Below, piece by piece: positions 3,583 to 16,378 of a stretch of DNA of 64,000 nt. The notes under the pieces are model-generated. The model was not told the DNA's origin. It made no database searches and saw only the letters and a list, made by a program, of their open reading frames with translations. The stretch spans positions 1-64,000 of the forward strand of contig QZKU01000115.1 in NCBI GenBank assembly GCA_003598085.1, written 5' to 3'. Within the stretch, counting starts at the first letter, position 1; every line of letters begins with the position of its first letter. The position numbers were made by a program, and so were the translations under genes. Source of the DNA: Candidatus Abyssobacteria bacterium SURF_5 (GTDB lineage Bacteria; Abyssobacteria; SURF-5).

Positions 3583-4311
3583 TTACGAACCTGAGGATTT
3601 CGAGTTTTCAAGGGCGCCGACTCGGTTTTGCCAATGGTCAATACGTCCGTCTTTCAAGTGATATACGTGGTCGAAACCCTCGATCATCCTCACATCATGA
3701 GTGACCACGATTACCGCTGACTTATTTTGTCCGGCGATCCGCTTCAATAATTCCATGACCCGTTTCCCTCTGGTTGTGTCAAGGGAGGCAGTCGGTTCAT
3801 CGGCAAGGATCAAGCGCGGGCTGTTGGCCAAGGCCCGCGCAATCGCCACGCGCTGTTGTTCGCCTCCGGAAAGGAAGGCTGGCAGGTAATCGGCCCTATC
3901 AGCGATTTCCATGTATTCGAGAAGCTCCGTAACCCGAGTTTGAGCCTGATTTCCCGTTACGCCAACCAGGTTCAAGGAGAAAAGCACATTTTGCCGCGCC
4001 GTAAGAAATGGGATCAGATTATGAGATTGAAAAACGAATCCGATTTTCTCGCGGCGCAGGCGGCGGACATCGACGCCTGTCCAGCCGTTCTTCTGAAAAA
4101 TTGTCTGTCCATCGAAGACGATCGTGCCTGCTGTGGGTTTAAGAATCAGACTAATGCACAGGAGCAATGTTGTCTTCCCGGAGCCGCTCGGTCCGAGTAA
4201 TGCCACAAGATTGCCCTCGGAGACGGCCAGATTTACATCCTCGAGAGCTTGGACCTCAAGATGGCCGGATCCGAATAATTTTGAGAGCGCTTCGGCCCTG
4301 AGAACTTCCAT
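3583..4311 (-). CDS. ABC transporter ATPase, MacB/LolD/DevA type
   Basis: A 242-residue ATPase with Walker [10 protein letters not shown] (about residues 39-47), signature LSGGEQQR, Walker [13 protein letters not shown] and switch His in VVTHD. The [10 protein letters not shown] wording and short length are characteristic of the MacB/LolD/DevA branch, which powers mechanotransmission-type FtsX-like permeases. Such a permease is encoded 2 bases upstream, followed by a membrane fusion protein. These three genes form a DevBCA-like tripartite exporter. Confidence 0.9.
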
Positions 4312-4313
4312 TC

Positions 4314-5510
4314 CTATCCTCCCAAAGCCCTAGCGGGTTCCGTCCTTATCGCCCGCCACAGGCCCAAAATGCTCGCGAAAATGCCGCCGATCAAAGCAAT
4401 GGCGAATGTAATGACATCATCGGAAGGAACCCTCAATATTGTTCTGGGGAACAGCGTGTACGTGTTCTGAATAACAATCAGGCCAAACAGAAAGGAGCTT
4501 GCTGTCAGGAGAAGCGATTGTTCCATCACGAGGCGAGCTATCACGAAGTTAGGGGCGCCAATGAGCTTCATGACGGCTATGCTTTGAATTTTCTCCGTGG
4601 TGAAGGTGTAGACCACCAGAGAAATGATGACCACGGATACGATCATGAGAAGCGTTCTGAAGAGGAAAAGCTGTTTCTTCATGGTTCCCAGTCGTCCCTT
4701 CATCATTAATTGACTCTCTTCTTGTGTGCTGAAGGCCGATAAATAGAGCCATTTCTTGATATACTGCGCTACCTGGTCACGGTCTGCGCCAGGCTGCAGG
4801 CGGACAAGAATTGCATTGATAATGTGGGTATCCGCTTGAAGCAGAGGAACCAGTTTTTGTGATTGGGCGGGTGATAAATACGTCTGCTTCGATAGAGTTT
4901 GAAGAAGCCGCTCGCGCTGGGCGCGCACCTCCTCATTGTCTTTTTGGTAGAGCACTTCCTGGGCGTCAGGCAGCGAAAGGTAAACGAGGGGTTCTCCATC
5001 GGGAGAGATTGCTTCTTTGGCCAAACCGACCACTATATAGGTGTGCAGGCCCAGGCGTATTTTGTCTCCAAGGCTCACTCCCAATTTTGGATGGGCTACC
5101 ATTTCATAATGAGCTTGTTGGATGCTTCTGCCGGCGTATATCTTTTTCGGTCCGCCTAGTCCGCCAAAAACGTCATAACCGACAATGCTGAAGCGCCGGC
5201 TCCTGCCGTTTATTACTCGCTCCACAACGTAAAAGATGAGAGGACTGGCTTTTTCGACTCCCGGTGTCGCCCCGACCCTGTAGTGATAATATTGGGGCAG
5301 AGTGGACTGCTCGTTGAATGGTCCTCCTCGATATCTCTCCACGACCCAAAGATCGGGATTCGTCACTCGAATGAAAGCGAGTCCCTCAAAAATAACTCCG
5401 CGATAGATGCCGTTCATGGCGAGGACAATGGTAAAGAGCAAGCCAACGCCTAGAACCGTGGCAACAAAGCGGCCCTTATGAATCTTCAGGTCGTATACCG
5501 CTAAATCCAT
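4314..5510 (-). CDS. FtsX/DevC-like ABC permease
   Basis: A 398-residue permease with one N-terminal membrane helix (about residues 17-37), a large periplasmic domain and three C-terminal helices, ending with a segment like those of FtsX-domain permeases (WRAIRTEPARALGG). This is the MacB/DevC architecture in which the ATPase is a separate protein. It lies 3 bases after the membrane fusion protein gene and 2 before the ATPase gene. It would sit in the inner membrane and drive export of an unidentified substrate across the periplasm. Confidence 0.85.
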   Translation of the reverse strand: MDLAVYDLKIHKGRFVATVLGVGLLFTIVLAMNGIYRGVIFEGLAFIRVTNPDLWVVERYRGGPFNEQSTLPQYYHYRVGATPGVEKASPLIFYVVERVINGRSRRFSIVGYDVFGGLGGPKKIYAGRSIQQAHYEMVAHPKLGVSLGDKIRLGLHTYIVVGLAKEAISPDGEPLVYLSLPDAQEVLYQKDNEEVRAQRERLLQTLSKQTYLSPAQSQKLVPLLQADTHIINAILVRLQPGADRDQVAQYIKKWLYLSAFSTQEESQLMMKGRLGTMKKQLFLFRTLLMIVSVVIISLVVYTFTTEKIQSIAVMKLIGAPNFVIARLVMEQSLLLTASSFLFGLIVIQNTYTLFPRTILRVPSDDVITFAIALIGGIFASILGLWRAIRTEPARALGG

Positions 5511-5513
5511 GAA

Positions 5514-6662
5514 TCAGCTCGCGCTCGCCTCAAGTTCCGGTTTCACATAATTGCCAGGCTTGATTCCCGCCGGGTTGATTATCACCATGTCACCCTCTTT
5601 GAGTCCGTCTATTATCGCTACTTTCCCCCCGTTTTCAAACCCTGTCGAAACAGGACGGAAGCTTACGAGCGCATCGGAGACCAAGAAGACCCCTTTCGAG
5701 CCTTTCTGCTGGGTTATGGCGGACAGCGGAGCCACAGGGGCTGTCTGAGTTCCAGTTTGAATTTCAACTTCCGTTTCTTCTCCGATCACCAGAGGTTCCG
5801 GCAAGGAGTCAAACTTCACATCCACTTCCAGTTCGCGAGTCACGATATCCGCCTCCTTATTTATGCGGACGACCTCTCCCTGAAAGACCCGTCCCGACCT
5901 GAGTCTGATGGAAGCTTTCTGTCCCTCACGCAATTCGGCCAACTTCGTTTCGTCTATCCACGTGGCTGACCAGACCTGATAATCCACCATTTGGAAAATG
6001 GGCAGTCCGGGAGAGATGGTGTCTCCGACTTCCGTCGTTCGCGAAGTAACGAGTCCGTCCATAGGAGCAAAAATGCGGGTATACGCGAATTCCGCCTCCG
6101 CCGCACGTTCCCTGAAGTCGGCCTCCTGAAACTCCGCTTCCGCAGCGGCTATAGCATGCTCGGAAACAGTGACATTGCTCTCGGCGACTTTGAGCGCGGC
6201 CTCAGTAGTGTCAAAGACCGCTTGCGAAATGATGCCGTTTTTCAGCAACTCCGAATATCGCCGATAATTGCTTTGGGTCAATTCCAGATTCGCCTGGCTT
6301 TTTAGCAGGTCGGCCCGGGCCCCCGATAGAGTCTGTTCGGCTCGATTTTTCGCAGCGCGAGCGCCGGCCATTTGCGCTCTTAATTGATCAGAGTCCAATT
6401 CGGCCAGAAGTTGCCCTTTCTTTACTCGTTCCCCCTGGTCCGCATAGAGTTTCACTAAAATACCCGTTATTTTGGCGCCCACCGCGACCGGCACCCGCGA
6501 CTGTACCGTTCCCGGCCCCTGCACCAAGCGCTGAATCTCCGCTTTCCTGACTAAGGTAACAGCGATCGAATGACGATACCAGAATAATCGATAGGCCAAA
6601 AGCATGATAACGAGGACGAAAATCAGAAGCGTAGCGATTTTCTTCCCATTTAATGGTTTCAT
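5514..6662 (-). CDS. HlyD/DevB-like membrane fusion protein
   Basis: A periplasmic adaptor of about 382 residues. The start at 6662 (MKPLNGKK) is preferred to the in-frame ATG at 6755, which would run 44 bases into the ArsR gene. It has a membrane anchor at about residues 8-27, a biotinyl-lipoyl-like barrel (VAVGAKITGILVKLYADQGE), a long alpha-helical hairpin rich in Ala, Glu and Gln, then a beta-barrel (YTRIFAPMDGLVTSRTTEVGD). It links the FtsX-like permease to an outer-membrane channel; no TolC gene is seen in the window. It is the second gene of the ArsR-led operon. Confidence 0.88.
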   Translation of the reverse strand: MKPLNGKKIATLLIFVLVIMLLAYRLFWYRHSIAVTLVRKAEIQRLVQGPGTVQSRVPVAVGAKITGILVKLYADQGERVKKGQLLAELDSDQLRAQMAGARAAKNRAEQTLSGARADLLKSQANLELTQSNYRRYSELLKNGIISQAVFDTTEAALKVAESNVTVSEHAIAAAEAEFQEADFRERAAEAEFAYTRIFAPMDGLVTSRTTEVGDTISPGLPIFQMVDYQVWSATWIDETKLAELREGQKASIRLRSGRVFQGEVVRINKEADIVTRELEVDVKFDSLPEPLVIGEETEVEIQTGTQTAPVAPLSAITQQKGSKGVFLVSDALVSFRPVSTGFENGGKVAIIDGLKEGDMVIINPAGIKPGNYVKPELEASAS

Positions 6663-6711
6663 TTCCGTGAATCCTTGATGTTGCTTGATTGAAAAATGAG
6701 ATGATTTGATT

Positions 6712-7164
6712 TCAGTCTTTCCGCTTTGGGCGGACGGTATTCTTTGCTTCCCCATGGCATTTCCTGTCCTGTTTCAGCGAATGATTGCCGTCATTTTGCA
6801 GTTCTTCGGGTCCGTGACAATTCTTGTTGCCCTGGCACAGGCACGGCGGCTTCTTCTTGCCGGCTGGCCGCTTGTGCGCGAGCGCCGCGCCGGCTTGGGA
6901 AATCCATTCAATCGCCTCTTTCCATTGGCCGAAAGCTTCTTCGTTCAAACGATAGTGTAGAAAATAGCTATGACGCTCCGGCGTCACCAGACCCATTTCT
7001 CGAAGGGCGCGAAGGTGCTGCGATACAGCTCCCTGGCTGACACCCAGTCGCTCGGAAAGCGCTCCAACGCACAGCGTATGCCGCTTCAACAAGTACACCA
7101 TGCGAACACGCGTCTCAGAAGAAAGGGCTTTGAAAAAGCGGGATAATTCTTTGATGTCGTCCAT
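6712..7164 (-). CDS. ArsR/SmtB-family metal-responsive repressor with Cys-rich tail
   Basis: A 150-residue winged-helix repressor (HTH near residues 33-60, LGVSQGAVSQHLRALREMG). Cys32 lies at the start of the recognition region. The C-terminal tail holds Cys108, Cys110 and Cys116 in a Lys/Asn-rich, probably disordered extension, a plausible thiophilic metal site. It is the first gene of the exporter operon and divergent from another ArsR gene. Its promoter and a TTAG-6-CTAA dyad are visible, consistent with autorepression lifted by a metal or metalloid. The ligand cannot be assigned. Confidence 0.88.
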   Translation of the reverse strand: MDDIKELSRFFKALSSETRVRMVYLLKRHTLCVGALSERLGVSQGAVSQHLRALREMGLVTPERHSYFLHYRLNEEAFGQWKEAIEWISQAGAALAHKRPAGKKKPPCLCQGNKNCHGPEELQNDGNHSLKQDRKCHGEAKNTVRPKRKD

Positions 7165-7185
7165 AAATGAGGCCGCCGAACTGTT

Positions 7186-7229
7186 TTAGTACATGCTAAT
7201 ATGATATAGGGTGTATTGGCGTTTGTCAA
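7186..7229 (-). promoter_or_regulatory. Promoter and operator for the exporter operon
   Basis: Minus strand: TTGACA (7229-7224), a 17-base spacer, TATCAT (7206-7201). Just downstream lies TTAG (7186-7189), six bases, CTAA (7196-7199), an inverted repeat located where an ArsR dimer would block transcription start. Confidence 0.65.
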
Positions 7230-7257
7230 ACGGGGATTGTAACGCCGGAAAAATTGC

Positions 7258-7302
7258 TTGAAAAAACATGAATCGTGGCGTATTATTTAAGCAAATACTT
7301 AA
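7258..7302 (+). promoter_or_regulatory. Promoter and operator for the second ArsR gene
   Basis: Plus strand: TTGAAA (7258-7263), a 17-base spacer, TATTAT (7281-7286). Immediately after is TTAAG (7287-7291), six bases, CTTAA (7298-7302), a perfect inverted repeat with the same half-site spacing as the divergent operator. Confidence 0.7.
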
Positions 7303-7316
7303 TTGAGGGCCATCAT

Positions 7317-7733
7317 ATGGAAAGTAGAGAAGCTGAACTGTTCAAAGCGCTTGGGGTTGAATCGCGCATCAAGATCATAAATGCCCTGAGAGAAAGGGGG
7401 CCCCTGGGCGTGAACCAACTGGCAAAAGAGCTGGGTATTACTCCCGCCGCTGTTTCTCAACACTTGAAGGTGCTCAAGCTGACAGGACTGGTGCGGAGCG
7501 AGCGAAAAGGATATTCAATTCCGTATGATATTGACCACGATGCTCTCGAACATTGCCAGGAAGTCCTTTCAAAGGTGTGCGCCTGTGGATGCCGGGGAAA
7601 GGCGCGTGCTCGCAAGGGGCCGCGGAAGGCGGCTCATGATAGCTTAACGCTTCTCAGGAAGTATGAACAAGAACTCCGGAGGGAACTCGAAGCCGTCCTT
7701 TCCCGAATTCACGAGATCGAGCGGAAGGCGTAA
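7317..7733 (+). CDS. ArsR-family transcriptional regulator with CACGC tail
   Basis: A 138-residue winged-helix regulator. The start at 7317 has GAGGG upstream, while the longer frame from 7275 would begin inside the promoter. The DNA-binding segment LGITPAAVSQHLKVLK is at about residues 39-54. Cys80 and a Cys88-x-Cys90-x-Cys92 cluster followed by a basic stretch form a likely metal or metalloid sensor site, unlike the classical site in helix 3. It is divergent from the exporter operon and followed by a separate small gene that also encodes a CGCGC motif. Confidence 0.88.
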   Translation: MESREAELFKALGVESRIKIINALRERGPLGVNQLAKELGITPAAVSQHLKVLKLTGLVRSERKGYSIPYDIDHDALEHCQEVLSKVCACGCRGKARARKGPRKAAHDSLTLLRKYEQELRRELEAVLSRIHEIERKA

Positions 7734-7740
7734 TTTTTTT

Positions 7741-7769
7741 TTCAAATTTATTTAAATTATTGCTTTAAT
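7741..7769 (+). promoter_or_regulatory. Possible promoter for the Cys-rich peptide
   Basis: TTCAAA (7741-7746), 17 bases, TTTAAT (7764-7769), followed by ATACTTAAT, the same string found in the operator of the upstream ArsR gene. This suggests, without proving, shared control. Confidence 0.35.
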
Positions 7770-7842
7770 ACTTAATGACAGAGACTTGAACGGGATGGGG
7801 GCTTCAGCGACTCTGATATCTGACGAAAAGGAGGTGATACAA

Positions 7843-7938
7843 ATGTCTTCGAAGAAGAGCAAGGGTTGTGGATGTGGTTGCCAGTCTTCGACGAAAGAGG
7901 GCGCCAAGAACCCAAAGTCTAAGTCAAAAAGGAAGTAA
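7843..7938 (+). CDS. Small Cys-rich peptide (31 aa), putative metal-binding
   Basis: A tiny gene with a very strong ribosome site, AAAAGGAGGTGAT, 6 bases before ATG. It encodes 31 residues, 10 of them Lys, with a central CGCGC cluster (Cys9, Cys11, Cys13) and no hydrophobic segment, so the product should be a soluble cytoplasmic peptide. The cluster mirrors the CACGC of the ArsR protein encoded just upstream. A metallothionein-like or metalloid-buffering role is inference; I do not recognise a named family. Confidence 0.6.
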   Translation: MSSKKSKGCGCGCQSSTKEGAKNPKSKSKRK

Positions 7939-8239: not shown

Positions 8240-8935
8240 TTATGAAAAAGAAAGATGGAAGATATAGACTGTGCAGAAATACAGCCCAATCGCAATGAAG
8301 AGTAAAGCGGTTATGCGGCGTGCCCACAGCTCGAAGGCGGTGATTCGGTTGAACACTTTTCCGACCGAATGCACACCGGACGCTATGAGGATGGCGAACA
8401 GAGCGACGGGCAGAGCCGTGCCGATGCCATAGACCGACGGCAACAAAGCGGTCGATCCGGCGCTGACGGCGAGCGGGATCAGGCTTCCGAAGAACAGCGC
8501 CGCGGATACCGGACAGAACGAGAGCGCGAAAATGATCCCCAATAAAGCCGCGCCGCCGACGCCCATTCTCTCTATTCGGCGTTTGAATGAATCGCTCAGG
8601 CCGATGCCGGGAAGCGAGAAGCGGAAGACGCCCAAAAGGAATAATCCGACCAGAATCAGGACAGGTCCGAGAATCTTGTTCATGTTCGACTGCAAAAAGA
8701 ACGATATCTGAGGCGCGGAAAGCAGGCTCTTTACCAGAAGGGCGCCCAGGAACAGGTATGTGAATGCCCTTCCCAATGTATAGAGGATGCCGCTTGCGAA
8801 CACGTGGCGGGGGCTGCCGACGCGCCTGCCGATATAGGACATTGCGGCGATGTTAGTGGCGAGCGGGCAGGGGCTTATCGACGTCAATATGCCGAGCCAC
8901 AGTGCAGAAAAGGCGCCCAAGACAACTTCAGTCAT
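8240..8935 (-). CDS. DsbD/CcdA-like permease, ArsG-family (aromatic arsenical efflux) candidate
   Basis: A 231-residue polytopic protein with six to seven membrane helices and a Cys in two of them (SPCPLATN, Cys23; LSFCPVSAALFFG), the pattern of DsbD/CcdA/TauE-like transporters. The pairing with a downstream-reading ArsF-like protein matches the arsFG arrangement described in Shewanella, where ArsG exports trivalent aromatic arsenicals. The coding start overlaps the ArsF-like stop by 4 bases. Alternatives are cytochrome c biogenesis (CcdA) or thiol-electron transfer to the periplasmic thioredoxin-fold proteins of this operon. Confidence 0.75.
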   Translation of the reverse strand: MTEVVLGAFSALWLGILTSISPCPLATNIAAMSYIGRRVGSPRHVFASGILYTLGRAFTYLFLGALLVKSLLSAPQISFFLQSNMNKILGPVLILVGLFLLGVFRFSLPGIGLSDSFKRRIERMGVGGAALLGIIFALSFCPVSAALFFGSLIPLAVSAGSTALLPSVYGIGTALPVALFAILIASGVHSVGKVFNRITAFELWARRITALLFIAIGLYFCTVYIFHLSFS

Positions 8936-9456
8936 GAATTACTCTCTTTCAAAAAGTCCGCGGCTTCCGTCTGGATATAAGAGAAGAATTCCTGTTTATT
9001 TCGGACCAACTGCCACACTTTGTCGAGGTTCTTCCATTTTGTTTGCTTACCATCCTGCACAGCGGAGAGAACAACTGATTGCGCGTACAACTGGTAATCG
9101 TTCACGAAATGTTTGTTCTCGGCGACTGTGATATCGATGGAGCGCCAAACGAGCTTGCCCTTCTCCAGTTCTTCCGCAAATTTCTCCTTCAACGCCTCTT
9201 CCGTGTACGCCTCAATCGTGAGGCATGTTCTGCACCGCCTGTTTCCATGGAAATAAGACGCGACAATCTGGTTTGATGCGCTATTATCCTGCGATGTCGT
9301 TTGGTCTTTCCCCGGCAGCGCGTCGTTCGAAGGCCTCGATTGAACCGATTGTTCCGCAGATATGCCTTCGTTGTCCCCGCCGGAAAAGATCAGATAGATG
9401 GAGATTGCGCAGATGGCCAATAGAAAGAGTGTGGTAATTGATTTTATTTTCGTCAC
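8932..9456 (-). CDS. ArsF-like membrane-anchored thiol protein
   Basis: A 174-residue protein starting at GTG 9456 behind AAAGGAG. Residues 6-25 form an N-terminal membrane anchor, then a low-complexity linker, then a thioredoxin-like domain with YFHGNRRCRTC and IEAYTEEAL, the signature of the ArsF family (nitrophenyl-compound nitroreductase subunit in the arsEFG system). The CxxC pair is a likely redox or metal site facing the periplasm. It is translationally coupled to the ArsG-like permease. An obvious ArsE partner is not recognised, so the full nitroreductase role is unproven. Confidence 0.72.
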   Translation of the reverse strand: MTKIKSITTLFLLAICAISIYLIFSGGDNEGISAEQSVQSRPSNDALPGKDQTTSQDNSASNQIVASYFHGNRRCRTCLTIEAYTEEALKEKFAEELEKGKLVWRSIDITVAENKHFVNDYQLYAQSVVLSAVQDGKQTKWKNLDKVWQLVRNKQEFFSYIQTEAADFLKESNS

Positions 9457-9539
9457 GTTACGGCTCCTTTACAGATGCGGCCGCGTCCAAGGCTTCTCTC
9501 GCGTCACAAGACGCCGCCTGTGGACGACGGTCTCCTAAT

Positions 9540-9992
9540 CTATTTCCTTTGGTTGTCGACTCTCAAAACCAGTTCTTCGATTTTGGCGCGCACCGCGTTC
9601 TCGTCCGAGAAATCCTCGCATAGCCAGACCAGCCGGTCGCCCTCGAGCACCACGAGAACCGGGAGCATGATAGCATCGTACTTTTCCATCAGCGGCTTTG
9701 CCGTTTCGTTCTCAAGTTCATAATCGATCGTCTTGAAGCGCATCCGGCTTGAGAAGTCTGCTTTTAATGCCTGCACGATTCCCTCGGCTACCCTGCATTG
9801 TTCGCGGGTGCACGGACAACTCATTTCATTCACGAACAGTATGGCAGAAAGGGCCAGGTCTGACTCATTTTCTCCTGTTTGCGGGCTGCTTCCCGCGGCG
9901 CTTCCCAGCACTGTGCCTTGCTTGCACGCGGTGCCGAAAAGAACGAGAGCAAAAACCATTTCCAACAGCAGAGCGCGCCGAATCAGCCGCAT
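9540..9992 (-). CDS. Thioredoxin-fold lipoprotein
   Basis: A protein of 150 residues from ATG 9992, which overlaps the previous stop (TAATG). A lipobox, LFGTAC, ends at Cys23, so the mature protein should be membrane-attached. The remainder has a thioredoxin-like fold with a Cys-rich motif SCPCTREQC in place of CxxC, followed by AEGIVQALKADF. No exact family is recognised. Position between two other thioredoxin-fold genes suggests an electron relay or thiol chaperone on the periplasmic side of the same system. Confidence 0.7.
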   Translation of the reverse strand: MRLIRRALLLEMVFALVLFGTACKQGTVLGSAAGSSPQTGENESDLALSAILFVNEMSCPCTREQCRVAEGIVQALKADFSSRMRFKTIDYELENETAKPLMEKYDAIMLPVLVVLEGDRLVWLCEDFSDENAVRAKIEELVLRVDNQRK

Positions 9993-10519
9993 TATTCCTT
10001 CCTTTTCTGTGCTTCTTCCTGAAGCCATTTTTTTATCTGCTCCCTTTTCGGAACGCGCCCAACCGATTTGACATCTTTATTGAAAACAAGAGCAGGCGTT
10101 CCAACAGCGCTATACTCGGCGATCTGATTGATGTCGGTGACGTGCTCGACATCGGCTGCAAGCCCGAGCTCGCCGAGCGCCGCCATGACCTCCTGCGTCA
10201 ACTGCTCGCATCTCGGGCAGCCCTGTCCGAGCACCTTGATCGTGAGTCCGGCAGGCTCGTCATCGTCGACCGGTTCGCCCAGGTACCTGCGGTATTCCCG
10301 CAGCAAAGCCCTCTCGTATTTCGTCTCGGCCGCCTGCGGGATGTAATTTTTCATGTTCCGCATCTCCTCGACGAGGGCGCGTTTGAGCGCTCTCTCCGAA
10401 TCAAGGTGACGCCGCCGTACGTTCTCAAAGGCCGTTTCCAGGCTGCGCAATCCGATCGGTTGCCCGTCGACCAGGATGCGAGTGATTTTCGGTTGTACCT
10501 CTTCTTGGCTCATTCTCAT
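9992..10519 (-). CDS. Two-part protein: unknown N-terminal domain plus thioredoxin-like domain
   Basis: A 175-residue soluble protein. Residues 1-90 form a charged, mainly helical region (RSLETAFENVRRRHLDSER) that I do not recognise. Residues 92-170 are a small thioredoxin/glutaredoxin-like domain of the MTH895 type with Cys101-Pro-Arg-Cys104, closely resembling the free 77-residue protein encoded at 11612-11845. The start overlaps the upstream stop (ATGA). The fusion suggests that the unknown domain docks this disulfide carrier to a partner, perhaps the Fe-S protein encoded just upstream. Confidence 0.75.
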   Translation of the reverse strand: MRMSQEEVQPKITRILVDGQPIGLRSLETAFENVRRRHLDSERALKRALVEEMRNMKNYIPQAAETKYERALLREYRRYLGEPVDDDEPAGLTIKVLGQGCPRCEQLTQEVMAALGELGLAADVEHVTDINQIAEYSAVGTPALVFNKDVKSVGRVPKREQIKKWLQEEAQKRKE

Positions 10520-11028
10520 CCAAACCGCTTCAGAAGCTCAGCACGTTTCTGCGGGTCATCACGCAGGGGAGGGCAGTCGTCGGGGCCCGCTTCTCCTGTG
10601 GCGACCGCGGCCGCGAACGCCATGCAGGTCTGCTTTTTGCAGAGACCGCAATTGGTTCGGGGAAGCAGCCGGAAGATATCGAGCGGCTTGAGACTCGAAA
10701 GGCTCCAGGTCGATGGCCGAATTTCCTGCTTCCTCTCGGCCACATCATTCACAAACTGCCGAATCCACTCAAAAACCTCTTGCGCCTCGTCCTCGTCCCT
10801 CAGAGGATTGATGAGGATTTTATCCGGATAGATCGCGAACGTTTTCCCGGATTTCCGGAACCGGAGAAACGGGATATTAGGCTCGTAAATGCACGGCGCG
10901 AACTCGGCGTTCAGGTATGGCAGCAGTTGCGTCAGGTCATCGTCGAAATCGACCTGTGCGACGACGGCCACAGATGACGGCAAACATTCCGGCGTGCTGA
11001 CCGTCAGCTTATATTTTTGAAACAGCAT
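10516..11028 (-). CDS. Fe-S protein with C-terminal NCGLC four-cysteine cluster
   Basis: A 170-residue protein from ATG 11028 (GAGGAG upstream); a longer frame to 11247 runs through repeats and is rejected. The C-terminus has Cys127-x2-Cys130-x4-Cys135-x16-Cys152, the 4Fe-4S motif (PF04060-like) found in the CODH/acetyl-CoA synthase gamma subunit and in RnfB. The first 120 residues are unfamiliar but contain IYPDKILINPLRDEDEA, suggesting a substrate or corrinoid-type interface. It overlaps the next gene by 4 bases. An electron donor role for the adjacent thioredoxin-like proteins is inference. Confidence 0.75.
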   Translation of the reverse strand: MLFQKYKLTVSTPECLPSSVAVVAQVDFDDDLTQLLPYLNAEFAPCIYEPNIPFLRFRKSGKTFAIYPDKILINPLRDEDEAQEVFEWIRQFVNDVAERKQEIRPSTWSLSSLKPLDIFRLLPRTNCGLCKKQTCMAFAAAVATGEAGPDDCPPLRDDPQKRAELLKRFG

Positions 11029-11320
11029 GACATTCTCCTCGTATGCACTCTGAATCGGTGGGGACAGACTCCATTCTATGAATCCACAAACGGAGAATCC
11101 ACAAGCGGGATTCCGTAAATGGAGTAAGCCTCTTCGCTGACATTGATGCTCTTGGGTCAGTCTCTGCCACGGAGAAATCCCCCTTAGTCCCCCTTTCCCA
11201 AAGGGGGAATGACTGCATGCGAGCATTAATGCTGGCTCGAAAGACAATCCCCGGTGTTTTCCGCAAATGGAGTCAGCCCCCTTCGCTCTTGGCCAGTCCC
11301 TGCCGCCTCCGTAAATGAAG
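11029..11320. repeat. Intergenic repeats, including a CCCCCTTT/AAAGGGGG palindromic element
   Basis: A dispersed palindromic element sits at 11177-11210 (CCCCCTTAGT then CCCCCTTTCCCAAAGGGGG); an inverted-orientation relative is at 15753-15787. Around it, a sequence of about 60 bases (CCGTAAATGGAGTAAGCC then CTTCGCT and CAGTCTCTGCC) occurs near 11107-11172 and again near 11258-11310. Small frames here derive from the repeats and are not annotated. Confidence 0.65.
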
Positions 11321-11599
11321 TCAATCGGCGCCGTGCCAGCGGTCCTTCATCTCCTTCAGCATGCTGAGCGGTGGGAACGCGATCGCTTGTGAAGGGCAGA
11401 GGCCGGCGCAATTGCTGCATTGCACGATGCAGTTATAAGGCCGGGCTGCGACAGGCCGCGTGTTCTGTTCGTCCCAGTCGTATGTGTTATGCGGACAAAA
11501 CTCGAAGCAGGTCTTGCAGCCGTCGCATTTCTCATAGTCGACCGTCGGGTACCATGGGATCTTTTCCCGCGGGATGCCTTCCCATTCAAGCTGGTCCAT
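11321..11599 (-). CDS. Dicluster ferredoxin-like protein
   Basis: A 92-residue protein with GTAGGAGAAG before the start. The first cluster motif is CDGCKTCFEFCP, the second CIVQCSNCAGLCP, the latter with an altered spacing (C-x3-C-x2-C-x3-CP). Both are typical of 4Fe-4S electron carriers. The N-terminal MDQLEWEGIPREKIPWYPTV is shared by small ferredoxins found near metal-resistance permeases. It lies 12 bases downstream of the thioredoxin-like gene in the same operon and probably supplies reducing equivalents to it. Confidence 0.85.
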   Translation of the reverse strand: MDQLEWEGIPREKIPWYPTVDYEKCDGCKTCFEFCPHNTYDWDEQNTRPVAARPYNCIVQCSNCAGLCPSQAIAFPPLSMLKEMKDRWHGAD

Positions 11600-11611
11600 T
11601 TCCGTCTTCTC

Positions 11612-11845
11612 CTACTTTTTCAGCCACTTTTCGATGTCGGACGCCTTCGGCACTTTTCCTTCGATTTTTTTCTCGCCGTCAATGAAGACAGCCGGAGTGA
11701 ACATCACGCCTCGGTCCACGATCGTATCGAGGTCGGTGATGTGCTCGATAGCGACATCGATACCCAATTGCTTCACGACCTTCGCGACTTCTTGCTCGGT
11801 TTTCTGGCATTTCGCGCAGCCAGGTCCGAAAATTTCGATTTTCAT
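11612..11845 (-). CDS. Small thioredoxin-like protein (MTH895/TM0996 type)
   Basis: A 77-residue redox-active disulfide protein (GGGAGG upstream). It has GPGCAKCQKTEQEV with Cys10 and Cys13, a cis-Pro region MFTPAVFIDGEKK and the compact fold of the thioredoxin_3 family. Such genes commonly sit beside large DUF318-type permeases, as here, where the permease gene lies 16 bases upstream. A direct role is to reduce or carry thiols for the permease or for the metalloid substrate. Confidence 0.88.
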   Translation of the reverse strand: MKIEIFGPGCAKCQKTEQEVAKVVKQLGIDVAIEHITDLDTIVDRGVMFTPAVFIDGEKKIEGKVPKASDIEKWLKK

Positions 11846-11861
11846 GGATTACCTCCCATTT

Positions 11862-13031
11862 TCACGCGATGACGGCGCCGTAAATCATGCCGCTAATCGT
11901 CGCCATGATTACCACCAGCACGCAGTACACGATTGTTTTTTGCGTCCCGATTACGCTCCGAATCACGAGCATGCTCGGCAGGCTCAATGCAGGCCCCGCC
12001 AGCAGCAAAGCCAGAGACGGGCCCGGCCCCATTCCATTGCCCATCAGTCCCTGCACGATCGGCACTTCTGTCAGCGTGGCGAAATACATGAATGCGCCGG
12101 CTAACGAGGCGAAGAAATTCGCCCACAGGCTGTTTCCGCCGACCACGCCCGCGACGTATCGTGCGGGAATCAGGCCACTATCGACGCCGGGCCGCCCCAG
12201 GAGGAGGCCCGCCGCGAGCACTCCGAAGAACAACAGCGGCATGATCTGTTTGGCGAATCCCCACGTGGTCTCGACCCACTCGGAAAGCTCTTCTTTATTG
12301 AACCACTTCCAGAGGATGATGGATAGCGCGACAGCGAAAGCACCTGTCAGCGGCCAGTGAATGCGATACACGGCATCCCACAAACCCACCGGCTGCGCGG
12401 GTTTGCCCCATGCCGCAAAAACCAGGATCGGAACCATTGCGCCAAAATACATGGCCGTCTGGGCCAGCGGGCGAGCTTCTCCTACAGGAGCTGCCGCGGC
12501 GGCCGCAGCTTTTTTCTCACTCTCTTCCTTCCGATAAATGAAGGCCATGATCAGGCCGATCACAACCGAGAAGATGACGGCGCCCACCGCTCGCGCGAGT
12601 CCCAACTGCCAGCCGAGCACGCGAGCCGTGAGAATGACGGCGAGCACGTTGATTGCCGGGCCGGAGTAGAGGAACGCTATCGCCGGACCGAGCCCCGCGC
12701 CGCGCCGGTGAATGCCGGCGAACAGCGGCAGTATCGTGCACGAGCACACGGCCAGAATGGTCCCCGATACCGACGCCACTCCATAGCTCAGTATCTTGTT
12801 GGCGCCCGCACCGAAGTACTTCATCACCGACGCCTGCGAAACGAAACAGGCGATTGCGCCCGCAATGAAGAACGCCGGCACGAGGCAAAAGAGCACGTGC
12901 TCGCGGGCGTAGTCCTTCACCATGAAGAACGCCTCGGCGAGAGAGCTTTGAAAACGAGGATGTCCTACCGGAAGAAAATATGCGAGAACAAAAGCTCCCA
13001 CAAGCAATGCGAATTTTGTTCGTTCCTTCAT
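11862..13031 (-). CDS. Permease of the ArsP/DUF318 family
   Basis: A 389-residue membrane protein with eight or more helices and the family motif AVCSCTILPLFAGIHRRGAGLGPA, plus GPALSLPSMLVIR in the second half. Two-halved permeases of this family include ArsP, which exports organic arsenicals, and uncharacterised relatives linked with thioredoxins, as here. The adjacent Cys pair in AVCSC could bind a thiophilic substrate. It is the first gene after the ArsR-family gene, with AGAGG before its start. The exact substrate is unknown. Confidence 0.83.
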   Translation of the reverse strand: MKERTKFALLVGAFVLAYFLPVGHPRFQSSLAEAFFMVKDYAREHVLFCLVPAFFIAGAIACFVSQASVMKYFGAGANKILSYGVASVSGTILAVCSCTILPLFAGIHRRGAGLGPAIAFLYSGPAINVLAVILTARVLGWQLGLARAVGAVIFSVVIGLIMAFIYRKEESEKKAAAAAAAPVGEARPLAQTAMYFGAMVPILVFAAWGKPAQPVGLWDAVYRIHWPLTGAFAVALSIILWKWFNKEELSEWVETTWGFAKQIMPLLFFGVLAAGLLLGRPGVDSGLIPARYVAGVVGGNSLWANFFASLAGAFMYFATLTEVPIVQGLMGNGMGPGPSLALLLAGPALSLPSMLVIRSVIGTQKTIVYCVLVVIMATISGMIYGAVIA

Positions 13032-13085
13032 ATCTCACCTCTACTGCCATCTATGGCGAAAGCGCCATGAATCGCCGCAAAAAAA

Positions 13086-13415
13086 TCAGCGCGCCGAAAG
13101 AGCCTCTTGCTGTGCTTTCAGATTCTCTTCCATCACCTGTTCGACGCACTCGAAGAAATTCAGCACGCACGGGCGCGCGAGCCGATAGAAGGATTTCGTG
13201 CCTTCTTTCCGGTCGTCCACCAGCCCGGCCTGCTTGAGGAGCGCCAGATGTTTCGAGACGGTTGACTGGTCGGCGCCGACCAGATCGACGAGATCGCAGA
13301 CGCACATTTCGCCGTGCTCGTTCAGAGCGTCGATCATCAGGAGACGGCTCGGATGCGCCATCGCCTTGAGGATATTGGCGCGCATCTCATAGATTTTCTT
13401 GTTCCTGTTTTTCAT
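13086..13415 (-). CDS. ArsR-family repressor with classical CVC metalloid site
   Basis: A 109-residue repressor with Cys38-Val-Cys40 in EMCVCDLVDLVGADQSTVSKHL, the classical ArsR alpha-3 site that binds As(III)/Sb(III), plus Cys83 and Cys90 near the C-terminus. ATG codons at 13454 and 13427 lie in or before the promoter; 13427 overlaps the -10 box, so 13415 is preferred. That leaves almost no untranslated leader, implying leaderless translation. It precedes the permease operon and should control it. Confidence 0.85.
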   Translation of the reverse strand: MKNRNKKIYEMRANILKAMAHPSRLLMIDALNEHGEMCVCDLVDLVGADQSTVSKHLALLKQAGLVDDRKEGTKSFYRLARPCVLNFFECVEQVMEENLKAQQEALSAR

Positions 13416-13419
13416 ATCA

Positions 13420-13454
13420 ATGGTCATTTTACCATATAACCATGAAAAAGGCAA
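13420..13454 (-). promoter_or_regulatory. Promoter and operator of the CVC-type ArsR gene
   Basis: Minus strand: TTGCCT (13454-13449), 17 bases, TAAAAT (13431-13426). A perfect dyad ATGGT (13420-13424), six bases, ACCAT (13431-13435) covers the -10 and expected start site. The spacing matches the operators at 7186 and 7287. Confidence 0.6.
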
Positions 13455-13617
13455 GAAGAAGATTCGTTCGGTTCACATCGATAGGCTGGAGCCGCTCCGG
13501 CGGTTCGCGCGACAGCCAATAAGTTTTTCTTCTTCAGTCTCGTGCGGCGGGAAGATCGGAATTAGCTCATGTTCAGTCGCGGAAGTCCGTCCATTGATGA
13601 CGGACCTCTCGCCGGAA

Positions 13618-13896
13618 TTATTTCTTTTCTTCGACCAATGTCCCATTGACATACTTGTGAAGAATGCTGGAAACAAACGTCTGATAGGGCAGCCCTTCCT
13701 TGATTGCGCGTTTCTGTAATTCAAGCAGATCTCTTTCGGAAATTCGTATATTGAGTCTCTTGTCCTTTCGCAAAGTGTTTCGCGCGTACCGCATCAGCTC
13801 TTTTTTTCTTCGAGGAAGGTCTTTCACCGGTACGAACTCGCCTTTTTCAAGGCTTTTGACGATTTCATTCTCTTTTTTGGTTAATTTTGTCTTCAT
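13618..13896 (-). CDS. CopG-type (ribbon-helix-helix) antitoxin-like protein
   Basis: A 92-residue, highly charged protein (GGAGAG before the start). The C-terminal half, RLNIRISERDLLELQKRAIKEG then LPYQTFVSSILHKYVNG, is a ribbon-helix-helix dimerisation and DNA-binding domain; the N-terminal part with EFVPVKDLPRRKK is typical of antitoxins that neutralise a toxin encoded just upstream. Here only a short toxin-like remnant precedes it, so the antitoxin appears orphaned. Confidence 0.75.
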   Translation of the reverse strand: MKTKLTKKENEIVKSLEKGEFVPVKDLPRRKKELMRYARNTLRKDKRLNIRISERDLLELQKRAIKEGLPYQTFVSSILHKYVNGTLVEEKK

Positions 13897-14006
13897 TGTT
13901 TCTCTCCAAAGTATTTCTCTGTGGCCTTCCTGCTTGGAATTTTCAGGAACAGTTCATCCTCGGTCTCGACATAGGGGAAGAGATAGGCGTCATCATTAAT
14001 GGATAC
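13893..14006 (-). pseudogene. C-terminal remnant of a toxin-like protein
   Basis: An open frame directly before the antitoxin ends ELFLKIPSRKATEKYFGEKQ and its stop overlaps the antitoxin start (ATGA). The -PSRKAT-KY-G- ending resembles the C-terminus of toxins paired with CopG-like antitoxins. It has no ATG, and its first in-frame stop upstream is that of the ferredoxin gene, so only about 36 residues remain. Family assignment is tentative. Confidence 0.4.
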
Positions 14007-14234
14007 TCAGCATTTGAGCGAGATGGCGCCGGGCTTGCACATGTTTACACATCGCATGCAGCCGTCGCAGAGCAGTGGATGGGTGGCCTGGATGATTACA
14101 TCGCTTGAAGGATTTGCGGGATCGAGCGGGCGGTGCGCCAGCACCTTTGTGGGGCACGCGTTAAGGCATTCGAGGGCGCACTGCGCCGGGGCCCGGCACT
14201 TTTCCATATCTATCGCGATCAGATACTTTCCCAT
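14007..14234 (-). CDS. 4Fe-4S ferredoxin-type protein
   Basis: A protein of about 75 residues starting at MGKYLIAIDMEKC. ATG 14234 is 9 bases from AGGGA and overlaps the preceding stop (TAATG); ATG 14240 is too close to the ribosome site. It has an incomplete first motif, CRAPAQCALECLNACP, and a complete second, CDGCMRCVNMCKPGAI. It probably forms an electron-transfer partner of the larger Fe-S protein translated just before it. Confidence 0.8.
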   Translation of the reverse strand: MGKYLIAIDMEKCRAPAQCALECLNACPTKVLAHRPLDPANPSSDVIIQATHPLLCDGCMRCVNMCKPGAISLKC

Positions 14235-15085
14235 TACCATTCATCCCTTACGGTTTCCACGGTTTCCCTGTCGACCAGGCTGATCGCGCCGCGGGGGCAT
14301 CTCGATCTGCACACCCCGCACCCGAAACAGAGAGAAGGAACGATGATCGCCCGCTGTTCCCGCCGCGAGAACCGCATTGCGCCGAAAGAGCAGGCGGACA
14401 TGCACTGGGGCTTTTCGCGGCAGCCGTTGCAGGCGGAGTAGTCAACCCTGGCGATATAATGGCTTTTCAAAGCAGGCCCGTACAGCCGGGGGAACAGATG
14501 GTTTCTTAATGGCACACAGTAGGGCAACTCGCAGTTGCAGATGTTCATCACATAAGGGATTGGAACGCCGCTGACCCACTGCACGCATCCTCGCTCGCCG
14601 GCCTTCCGAGTGATCTCCTTAGCCTCCTCGGCGTCCACGTACCGGTTATATTCCTTCACGGGAAGCGACTTTTGCGTGATCAGATCACACACCGGCTGGA
14701 AGTGCATGCATACCATCTCGTCAATGCCGCCCCACAACTTTCTGCATTCGCAGATGGTCAGCCCGATCTTGACATCGAAATTCTGCGGGAGTTCGAGCAC
14801 CTTGAGCGCGTCCTCGAGGGGAAGTATCTGCCCGATGATCGAGGATTCGCGATTAAACTCGTTCATGGAGTTTATCAGGTCCGGCGGCGGGTTGAGGCTG
14901 TCGAAGCACGCATCGAGAATCTTGAAACGGCCCATCATTCCCTCGCCGAACGCGAGAGAGAATGTTGCCTCCATCACTCGCTGAAAGAGGGGGTCTTCCC
15001 GCCACGCCTTCCACAGGTCGAAGTTTTTGGGCGTCAGATACCATTTCGTGTTGTCTGAACCATGCTGGCGACAGAATTCACACAT
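14234..15085 (-). CDS. Multi-cysteine protein with C-terminal dicluster ferredoxin domain
   Basis: A 283-residue protein (GGAGGGGG upstream) that starts MCEFCRQHG. The middle region has conserved-looking Cys clusters (GLTICECRK; GERGCVQWVSG; MNICNCELPYC). Residues 216-270 form a ferredoxin domain with CNGCREKPQCMSACSFGAM and CFGCGVCRSRCPRGAI. It resembles uncharacterised 4Fe-4S proteins of anaerobes; no reaction can be assigned. It starts the minus-strand redox island, and the coupled small ferredoxin implies a two-component electron-transfer module. Confidence 0.75.
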   Translation of the reverse strand: MCEFCRQHGSDNTKWYLTPKNFDLWKAWREDPLFQRVMEATFSLAFGEGMMGRFKILDACFDSLNPPPDLINSMNEFNRESSIIGQILPLEDALKVLELPQNFDVKIGLTICECRKLWGGIDEMVCMHFQPVCDLITQKSLPVKEYNRYVDAEEAKEITRKAGERGCVQWVSGVPIPYVMNICNCELPYCVPLRNHLFPRLYGPALKSHYIARVDYSACNGCREKPQCMSACSFGAMRFSRREQRAIIVPSLCFGCGVCRSRCPRGAISLVDRETVETVRDEW

Positions 15086-16378
15086 GTCCGGGCTTCCCCC
15101 TCCATATGGCAGGACGTTAATCGGCTGTCCGAATCATTTCGTATCTTCTCCTGCTCCGGCTGAAGCGCGCCGGTATGAGCGGTACCCATGATACCAGATT
15201 TGCTGATGAAAGAGAAAGATAGACATGATTTCTGGATGAACATTGCGGTCCGGGGGTAGTCGGGGAGAAACATTCTGATAAAACTCTTGATTGCGAATGA
15301 GCGCGAAATAAGTGCAAAAACAGAATGAAAACTGCACAAATGCATTTAACCACCGATTTCACGGATTGACACGGAGTGCTGAACGAAGTGAAGTCACGCG
15401 TTTGGCGTGATCATTCTGACCCCGCTGACCTGCCACGCGTTTCGCGTGGTTCGCGGGGGAAGAATCTCTCTTTTCAACCGCCGATGAACGCCGAGTGCGC
15501 CGATGTAGGGGCACGGCATGCCGTGCCCGAAATGTTTTCGTTACGGGGAAAGAGACAAAATCCAACCACCAAGGCACGAAGGCACAAAGAAAACAAAGGC
15601 GAAAAGGCACGAAACCCACGATTTTCGAATTTCACATCTTTTCTGGTTACAATCGAAAACATGTTCCGGATTCTGATCGGGAGTGGAATATGTGTTCACC
15701 GTAGGGGCGACCCGGTGGGTCGTCCGCGAATCTTTGAATTCCGCCATACACCATTCCCCCTTTGACAAAGGGGGACTAAGGGGGAATCTCTTTTCTCACC
15801 CCCGAACCGTAGGGGCGGTCCAACGTGGCCGCCCGCTTCTCGTCATACATTCCCGCGCCTCGCGGCATTACCTGCCTTTATCTCTTCAGACCTTGAACTT
15901 TGGACCTTGAACTAATTTCTCGCCACGAAAGCGCACGAAAACCACGAATCGCAAATTAGACATCTTTCTGGCTGCAATCGAAAACATGTTTCGGATCCTC
16001 AATTGAGTCGAGGAACGGCTTTGATCCGGGATCGGTTGCGGTCCTTTGGTAGTCGAAGAGGCGCTAGCCAAGCCTTCTCTCATGCTCAGCATTCGGTCTG
16101 GCATATCTGAAGATAACATGATGAATGCTTGACTTCGGAGGTTGATTGAATAAATGCGACTTCTAACTAAATGTTTCATATATTTTCTATTTGGAGAAGA
16201 TGGGCGGAGAAATAACCTTTGACAAGATAAGGACTTATGGAGAAAAATCGGGCTCTGTCCCTAATTTCGCCCCAAATCCTGGAAAGTTCTGGTCCGTCGT
16301 CGGCGCAAACGCCATCATTGCTTCGCGCTGCCCAATTCTCCGGCAGCTTTGATATTTCCCGGGAGGAATTATCAGCCT
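15086..16378. repeat. Gene-free region of dispersed palindromic and decayed direct repeats
   Basis: No supported gene is seen in 1.3 kb. Repeats include three GTAGGGGC-type palindromic elements (15505-15530, 15701-15729, 15809-15836); the ATTCCCCCTTTG/CAAAGGGGGACT element (15753-15787); and an imperfect direct repeat of about 75 bases, near 15605-15677 and 15930-16003, sharing CAATCGAAAACATGTT and flanking CACGAAAACCACGA-like strings. Sequences such as CACCGATTTCACGGATTGACACGG are also of the non-coding dispersed type. Frames of 60-130 codons here are repeat-derived. Confidence 0.7.

Follow-up and report, generated by a model that had tools for sequence, protein, structure and literature searches.

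ArsF and ArsG in an expanded arsenical-resistance operon of Candidatus Abyssobacteria bacterium SURF_5: more likely an electron relay than an efflux pump

Does the ArsF-ArsG pair of an arsenical-resistance operon pump arsenicals out of the cell, or does it carry electrons across the cytoplasmic membrane? The question is raised by a locus of Candidatus Abyssobacteria bacterium SURF_5 (a candidate bacterium of the deep subsurface, with a genome of 5.1 Mb), found in a stretch of 64,000 nucleotides (contig QZKU01000115.1, positions 1 to 64,000; hereafter the window). Its minus-strand genes, read from 13415 down to 8240, encode ArsR, an ArsP-type permease, ArsE, the ferredoxin Fd92, the iron-sulfur (Fe-S) protein FeS170, the fused thioredoxin TrxFUS, the lipoprotein LipoTrx, ArsF and ArsG (Table 1). 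A first-pass annotation, made from the letters alone, had described a redox-coupled efflux island at 8240-15085, with ArsG as a second export permease beside the ArsP-like one. The redox-coupled arsenical operon was read correctly; the second permease probably was not. With moderate confidence, we interpret the locus as an ArsR-controlled arsenical-resistance operon that combines export by ArsP with a relay in which electrons would pass from ArsE and TrxFUS through ArsG to ArsF and LipoTrx.

ArsG, ArsF and both ArsE domains exceed the curated NCBIfam cut-offs of their families, so that the ArsF/ArsG-like pair was named correctly at first sight. ArsG also matches the Pfam family PF13386 DsbD_2 (57.6 bits, cut-off 24.9, 2.1e-15). 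Among 17 aligned ArsG proteins, the sole invariant cysteines are C23 (SPCPLAT) and C141 (SFCPVSA), present in 17/17 and located in transmembrane segments 1 and 4. Comparison by hhalign of these 17 proteins with 11 canonical CcdA sequences from Desulfobacterota scored 99.2% (E 2.6e-19; 214 columns) and placed both cysteines opposite those of CcdA; the score fell to 0.6% in the reversed control. In the predicted model of ArsG (predicted local distance difference test, pLDDT, 78), the helices are interrupted at each of the two Cys-Pro sites. Foldseek gave a single confident PDB match to this model, CcdA 5vkv (probability 1.00, E 0.019), and the next match has a probability of 0.25. ArsG resembles the CcdA/DsbD thiol relay in its fold, in the pair of redox cysteines placed in kinked helices and in having a secreted thioredoxin next to it. 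It differs in being arsenic-regulated and arsenic-clustered, and in having motifs of its own (PCPLAT and FCPVSA).

The strongest evidence for ArsG as an electron carrier comes from the exchange of genes within the operon slot. At eight loci with ArsP, ArsE and TrxFUS, a secreted thioredoxin (PF00085) and a canonical CcdA (PF02683) stand in place of ArsF and ArsG (L073, L077, L078, L081, L083, L084, L092 and L120; L073 and L092 each lack one of the three accompanying genes). These operons occur in Desulfobacterota and Acidobacteriota. The CcdA likeness and the slot swapping together make it more likely, as far as sequence and models can indicate, that ArsF and ArsG form a cytosol-to-periplasm electron relay rather than an efflux pump.

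ArsF is consistent with the outer end of such a relay. A CxxC motif is present in 19/19 ArsF proteins, behind a signal or lipobox-like N-terminus (N-termini read by eye). The predicted ArsF model has a core with pLDDT >90 and thioredoxin topology, and Foldseek retrieved thioredoxins (probability 1.00, E 3.9e-5) with modest TM-scores, partly because of a disordered N-terminal part. The ArsF profile gave no significant match when compared with the PDB by sequence, and thus the thioredoxin-fold assignment rests on the predicted structure. LipoTrx, which carries CPCTREQC, is probably a divergent periplasmic thioredoxin: hhalign scores are ~46% to ArsF and ~46% to periplasmic thioredoxins, in L119 a homologue immediately precedes a CcdA gene, and in L122 a single open reading frame (ORF) is matched by the LipoTrx profile as well as by that of periplasmic thioredoxins. 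Both ArsF and LipoTrx are predicted to face outward. LipoTrx was rejected as a widespread component, as 297 Desulfobacterota genomes yielded two weak matches only, one of them in the same operon slot.

A test of gene order had been set beforehand, and the order proved to be conserved across phyla rather than confined to close relatives. The closest named relative among the genomes searched is Candidatus Abyssobacteria SURF_17 (ArsG 90% identical). A scan of genome contigs for ArsG identified 21 loci, spread over Zixibacteria, CSSED10-310, Krumholzibacteria, Bacteroidetes, Acidobacteria, Chitinivibrionales, Sumerlaea, Obscuribacter and Deltaproteobacteria. Eighteen ArsG-anchored loci were scored, several of which run off contig ends: ArsF is present in 17, free ArsE in 15, ArsR in 14 and an ArsP-family permease in 12. 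The commonest order, seen across many phyla, is ArsR-ArsP-ArsE-ArsF-ArsG. One family relative (L035) has ArsR-ArsP-ArsE-FeS170-ArsF-ArsG, and the other (SURF_17, L034) has ArsR-ArsP-ArsE-FeS170-Fd92-FeS170-multihaem cytochrome-TrxFUS-LipoTrx-ArsF-ArsG. At 20 Desulfobacterota loci picked by TrxFUS alone, we identified ArsR (15), ArsP (15), ArsE (14) and FeS170 (8), along with ACR3 (8), ArsC (6) and ArsM (3). Co-occurrence of the gene set is not due to chance, as its parts recur in the 18 ArsG-anchored and in most of the 20 TrxFUS-anchored loci.

ACR3, ArsC or ArsM is present at 10 of the 18 ArsG-anchored and 11 of the 20 TrxFUS-anchored loci; ArsM passes with the arsenite methyltransferase model, as does the ACR3 of L015 with the ACR3 model. 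ACR3 scored above its cut-off in 33 of 59 sampled Desulfobacterota genomes. Within that sample, it lies within ~6 kb of TrxFUS in 8 of the 14 genomes that carry TrxFUS (from coordinates), far above the ~0.2% estimated per random 13-kb window (~33 genes in ~200 Mb). Because TrxFUS and FeS170 recur with ArsP, ArsE, ArsM, ArsC and ACR3 in Desulfobacterota, the link to arsenic is strong. The host has a separate ArsR-ACR3-ArsC operon. In Solibacteraceae L020, ArsM is fused to an ArsE thioredoxin domain (L020:3190-4281), and a gene for an Fd92-like ferredoxin follows. The multihaem protein inside the SURF_17 operon is a c-type cytochrome fused to a cytochrome b domain (L034:6316-9048), and a second gene of this family follows FeS170 in L122 (L122:2-1354); the two lineages are distant. 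Multihaem cytochromes beside FeS170 fit with an extracytoplasmic redox role.

Part of this set has been described before. A resistance set under the name ArsEFG is known (Chen, Zhang and Rosen 2019, as cited in PMC9144182 and PMC10190100). ArsE-, ArsF- and ArsG-family proteins occur together in the window's operon, which adds ArsP, FeS170, a ferredoxin, TrxFUS and LipoTrx; in addition, we read its ArsG as a CcdA-type electron carrier, not a permease. The strain that carried ArsEFG was reportedly Shewanella putrefaciens 200. The arsE-arsF-arsG genes are contiguous in other phyla (e.g., L016, L017 and L021), but four genes lie between free ArsE and ArsF in the window. Also described are ars operons with CcdA and thioredoxin genes, which share with this one a CcdA homologue, a thioredoxin and an ArsE-type protein. 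In the part of that description available, transmembrane electron flow was considered and judged less likely, the set was tied to ArsC, and ArsF, TrxFUS and FeS170 are not mentioned. Thus, the first impression of an undescribed system holds for the expanded version, which is new, but not for its core, which is already described.

A route for electrons through the operon can be proposed. Fd92 and FeS170 would probably pass electrons to cytosolic ArsE and TrxFUS, which would in turn reduce the ArsG membrane thiol carrier. Through C23 and C141, and by analogy with CcdA, from which we infer the direction of flow, ArsG would pass electrons outward to ArsF and LipoTrx. Outside the cytoplasmic membrane, these may reduce an arsenical, perhaps a nitroaromatic or methylated one as first proposed, or thiols that arsenicals have blocked. 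From what is known of its family, ArsP would export the trivalent arsenical product, probably an organic one. The permease, rightly called ArsP-like at the outset, is by its sequence likely an exporter of a trivalent (organo)arsenical; its CSC motif is kept in 33/33 homologues. It shares family PF03773, the CSC motif and the ars neighborhood with ArsP organoarsenical exporters, but exceeds no NCBIfam equivalog cut-off of the superfamily.

Several observations weigh against the relay. The ArsG model is of medium confidence, with a TM-score of 0.44 to 5vkv, and the ArsG profile against 5vkv alone has a sequence E-value of 0.02. NCBIfam calls ArsG an 'aminobenzylarsenical efflux permease', a name presumably taken from the experimental work published in 2019. 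Outside Abyssubacteria-type genomes, Fd92 and LipoTrx are rare. No dedicated reductase to feed the thioredoxins was found within the operon, and thus the step from the Fe-S proteins to ArsE is conjecture. A rival explanation is the canonical function of ArsEFG, in which ArsE and ArsF are nitroreductase subunits, ArsG is an aminophenyl-arsenical efflux permease and ArsP exports a second arsenical. This was in essence the model of the first-pass annotation, with ferredoxins as the source of electrons. The window's ArsG and ArsF exceed the NCBIfam cut-offs of these families, and PMC9144182 lists ArsG as an organic-arsenical efflux transporter. We nevertheless consider this function unlikely, as ArsF carries a membrane or lipoprotein-like signal at its N-terminus and is predicted to fold as a thioredoxin rather than as a flavin nitroreductase, ArsG is related to CcdA and has both redox cysteines, and a CcdA-thioredoxin pair substitutes for ArsF-ArsG in related operons.

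Identical relay anatomy would be expected of a repair module, in which exported electrons would maintain thiols of the periplasm or of ArsP in reduced form while trivalent arsenicals are exported, and no arsenical would be reduced outside the cell. The invariant CSC motif of ArsP agrees with such a role, but it leaves unexplained both the Fe-S partners and the multihaem cytochrome inserted in SURF_17, and we judge it quite improbable. A substrate other than arsenic (Sb, Hg, Se or Cu/Zn), with the ars neighbors reflecting shared islands only, is very improbable. Weak similarity of the permease to the SO_0444 Cu/Zn (110 bits) and SaoE (104 bits) models, below the cut-offs of 300 and 325, could be cited for it, as could the ArsR pair C84/C91, which is unlike ArsR next to ACR3. 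ACR3, ArsC and ArsM, however, recur alongside in unrelated phyla, and the ArsG equivalog cut-off is exceeded. Membership of the Sao or SO_0444 systems was rejected (SaoE 104.1 bits versus 325, SO_0444 109.8 versus 300, SaoT 16.8 versus 65), as was membership of the HgcAB mercury-methylation system (HgcB ferredoxin model 36.7 bits, cut-off 99).

More tentatively than for the window's operon, we suggest that ArsG may generally be a CcdA-type carrier, and that ArsFG (or thioredoxin and CcdA) with TrxFUS and FeS170 could constitute a widespread, unnamed system of anaerobes that directs ferredoxin electrons to periplasmic arsenical detoxification. If ArsG does carry electrons rather than arsenicals, public genome annotation uses a curated family name that is mistaken, and anaerobes have a reductive arm of arsenic resistance in the periplasm. 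TrxFUS and FeS170, conserved partners for which we found no assigned role, would then be arsenic genes open to testing in cultivable Desulfobacterota.

The operon proper spans ~8240-13415, with ArsR as its probable start (ATG at ~13415), and holds two of the four Fe-S proteins originally assigned to it, Fd92 and FeS170. The other two, FeS283 (14234-15085) and Fd77 (14007-14240), were rejected as members: they are upstream of ArsR, with a CopG-like gene and a gap of 200 bases in between, FeS283 homologues are on other contigs in both family relatives, and the ars operons there lack these genes. Packing is tight, as first described, but overlaps are not frequent. Spacing from ArsR to ArsG is 54, 16, 12, 292, -4, -1, 83 and -4 bases, so that only three of the eight junctions overlap (FeS170/TrxFUS by 4, TrxFUS/LipoTrx by 1 and ArsF/ArsG by 4 bases).

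Table 1. Genes of the arsenical-resistance operon, in order from ArsR to ArsG.
Gene	Positions	Strand	Predicted product	Supporting evidence
ArsR	13086..13415	minus	ArsR/SmtB repressor	NF033788 96.5 bits, cut-off 55; CVC (C39, C41) and second pair C84/C91
ArsP-type permease	11862..13031	minus	ArsP_1-family permease, CSC motif	PF03773 246.8 bits, cut-off 32.3
ArsE	11612..11845	minus	ArsE/MTH895-type thioredoxin, 77 aa, cytosolic	TIGR00412 94.0 bits, cut-off 62; PF13192
Fd92	11321..11599	minus	2x[4Fe-4S] ferredoxin	PF12837, PF00037 and PF12838 above cut-off
FeS170	10516..11028	minus	Uncharacterized N-domain and PF04060 Fe-S domain	PF04060 50.4 bits; invariant C15/C127/C130/C135
TrxFUS	9992..10519	minus	Conserved N-domain fused to ArsE domain (CPRC)	TIGR00412 87.1 bits, residues 94-167, cut-off 62
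LipoTrx	9540..9992	minus	Secreted lipoprotein, lipobox-like N-terminus, CPCTREQC	No Pfam/NCBIfam match
ArsF	8932..9456	minus	N-terminally anchored or secreted thioredoxin-fold protein	NF040494 118.3 bits, cut-off 60; C75/C78 invariant
ArsG	8240..8935	minus	CcdA/DsbD-type membrane protein	NF040495 290.8 bits, cut-off 200; redox cysteines C23, C141

Three further thioredoxin-fold proteins had been proposed besides ArsF. ArsE and TrxFUS are confirmed by TIGR00412, and LipoTrx has its CPCTREQC motif without a family match. Of 395 Desulfobacterota genomes, 107 contain a TrxFUS match, for the most part full-length; of 247 Acidobacteriota genomes, 12 do, but no more than three of these matches clearly approach full length. 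The FeS170 family was found repeatedly in Desulfobacterota ars operons, and an Fd92 homologue adjoins the ArsM-ArsE fusion of L020. Judged by such matches, some of the accessory proteins occur beyond the Abyssubacteria lineage.

The CVC-type ArsR at the head of the operon is as first described. Its additional pair C84/C91 occurs besides C39 in nearly all non-Desulfobacterota ArsR that head ArsP-ArsE-ArsF-ArsG operons. ArsR beside ACR3 lack the pair, including SURF_17's own second ArsR (compared: L034:2295 and L094:88), as does, by eye, the host's ACR3-linked ArsR. This hints at a different inducer, with phylogeny as a confounder. A promoter-like TTGCCT-17-TAAAAT at 13454-13426 was not above chance expectation in a promoter scan, and a search of inverted repeats for an ArsR operator gave nothing convincing. 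A dispersed palindrome, CCCCCTTT-NNN-AAAGGGGG, is present at 11189-11207, within the 292-base gap of the operon, and at 15756-15774 (4 matches versus 0.01 expected; with both strands counted, two sites).

Other genes of arsenic islands were also identified. The host encodes an ArsM homologue (L118:3720-5371) with an adjacent weaker methyltransferase match, away from recognized ars operon genes. Genes for a GcvH-like lipoyl carrier and DGC-domain proteins are present in ars islands of three lineages (L028:10245-15768, L122:5228-7527 and L020:4595-7643), joined in L028 and L020 by a lipoate ligase; a lipoyl-dithiol arsenic module is possible.

Flanking the operon in the window are several genes of separate interest. 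The 4Fe-4S proteins FeS283 (283 aa) and Fd77 (77 aa) are encoded with a 7-base overlap, and paralogues of FeS283 are present at other sites in the genomes of the family. A solitary CopG-type antitoxin-like gene (13618-13896), for which no toxin partner was recognized, is just upstream of ArsR. On the other side of the operon, at 6712-7938, is a pair of divergent ArsR-family regulators whose C-termini carry extra cysteines, together with a cysteine-rich ORF of 50 aa (GCGCGC). These genes adjoin an HlyD/ABC efflux set at 3583-6755.

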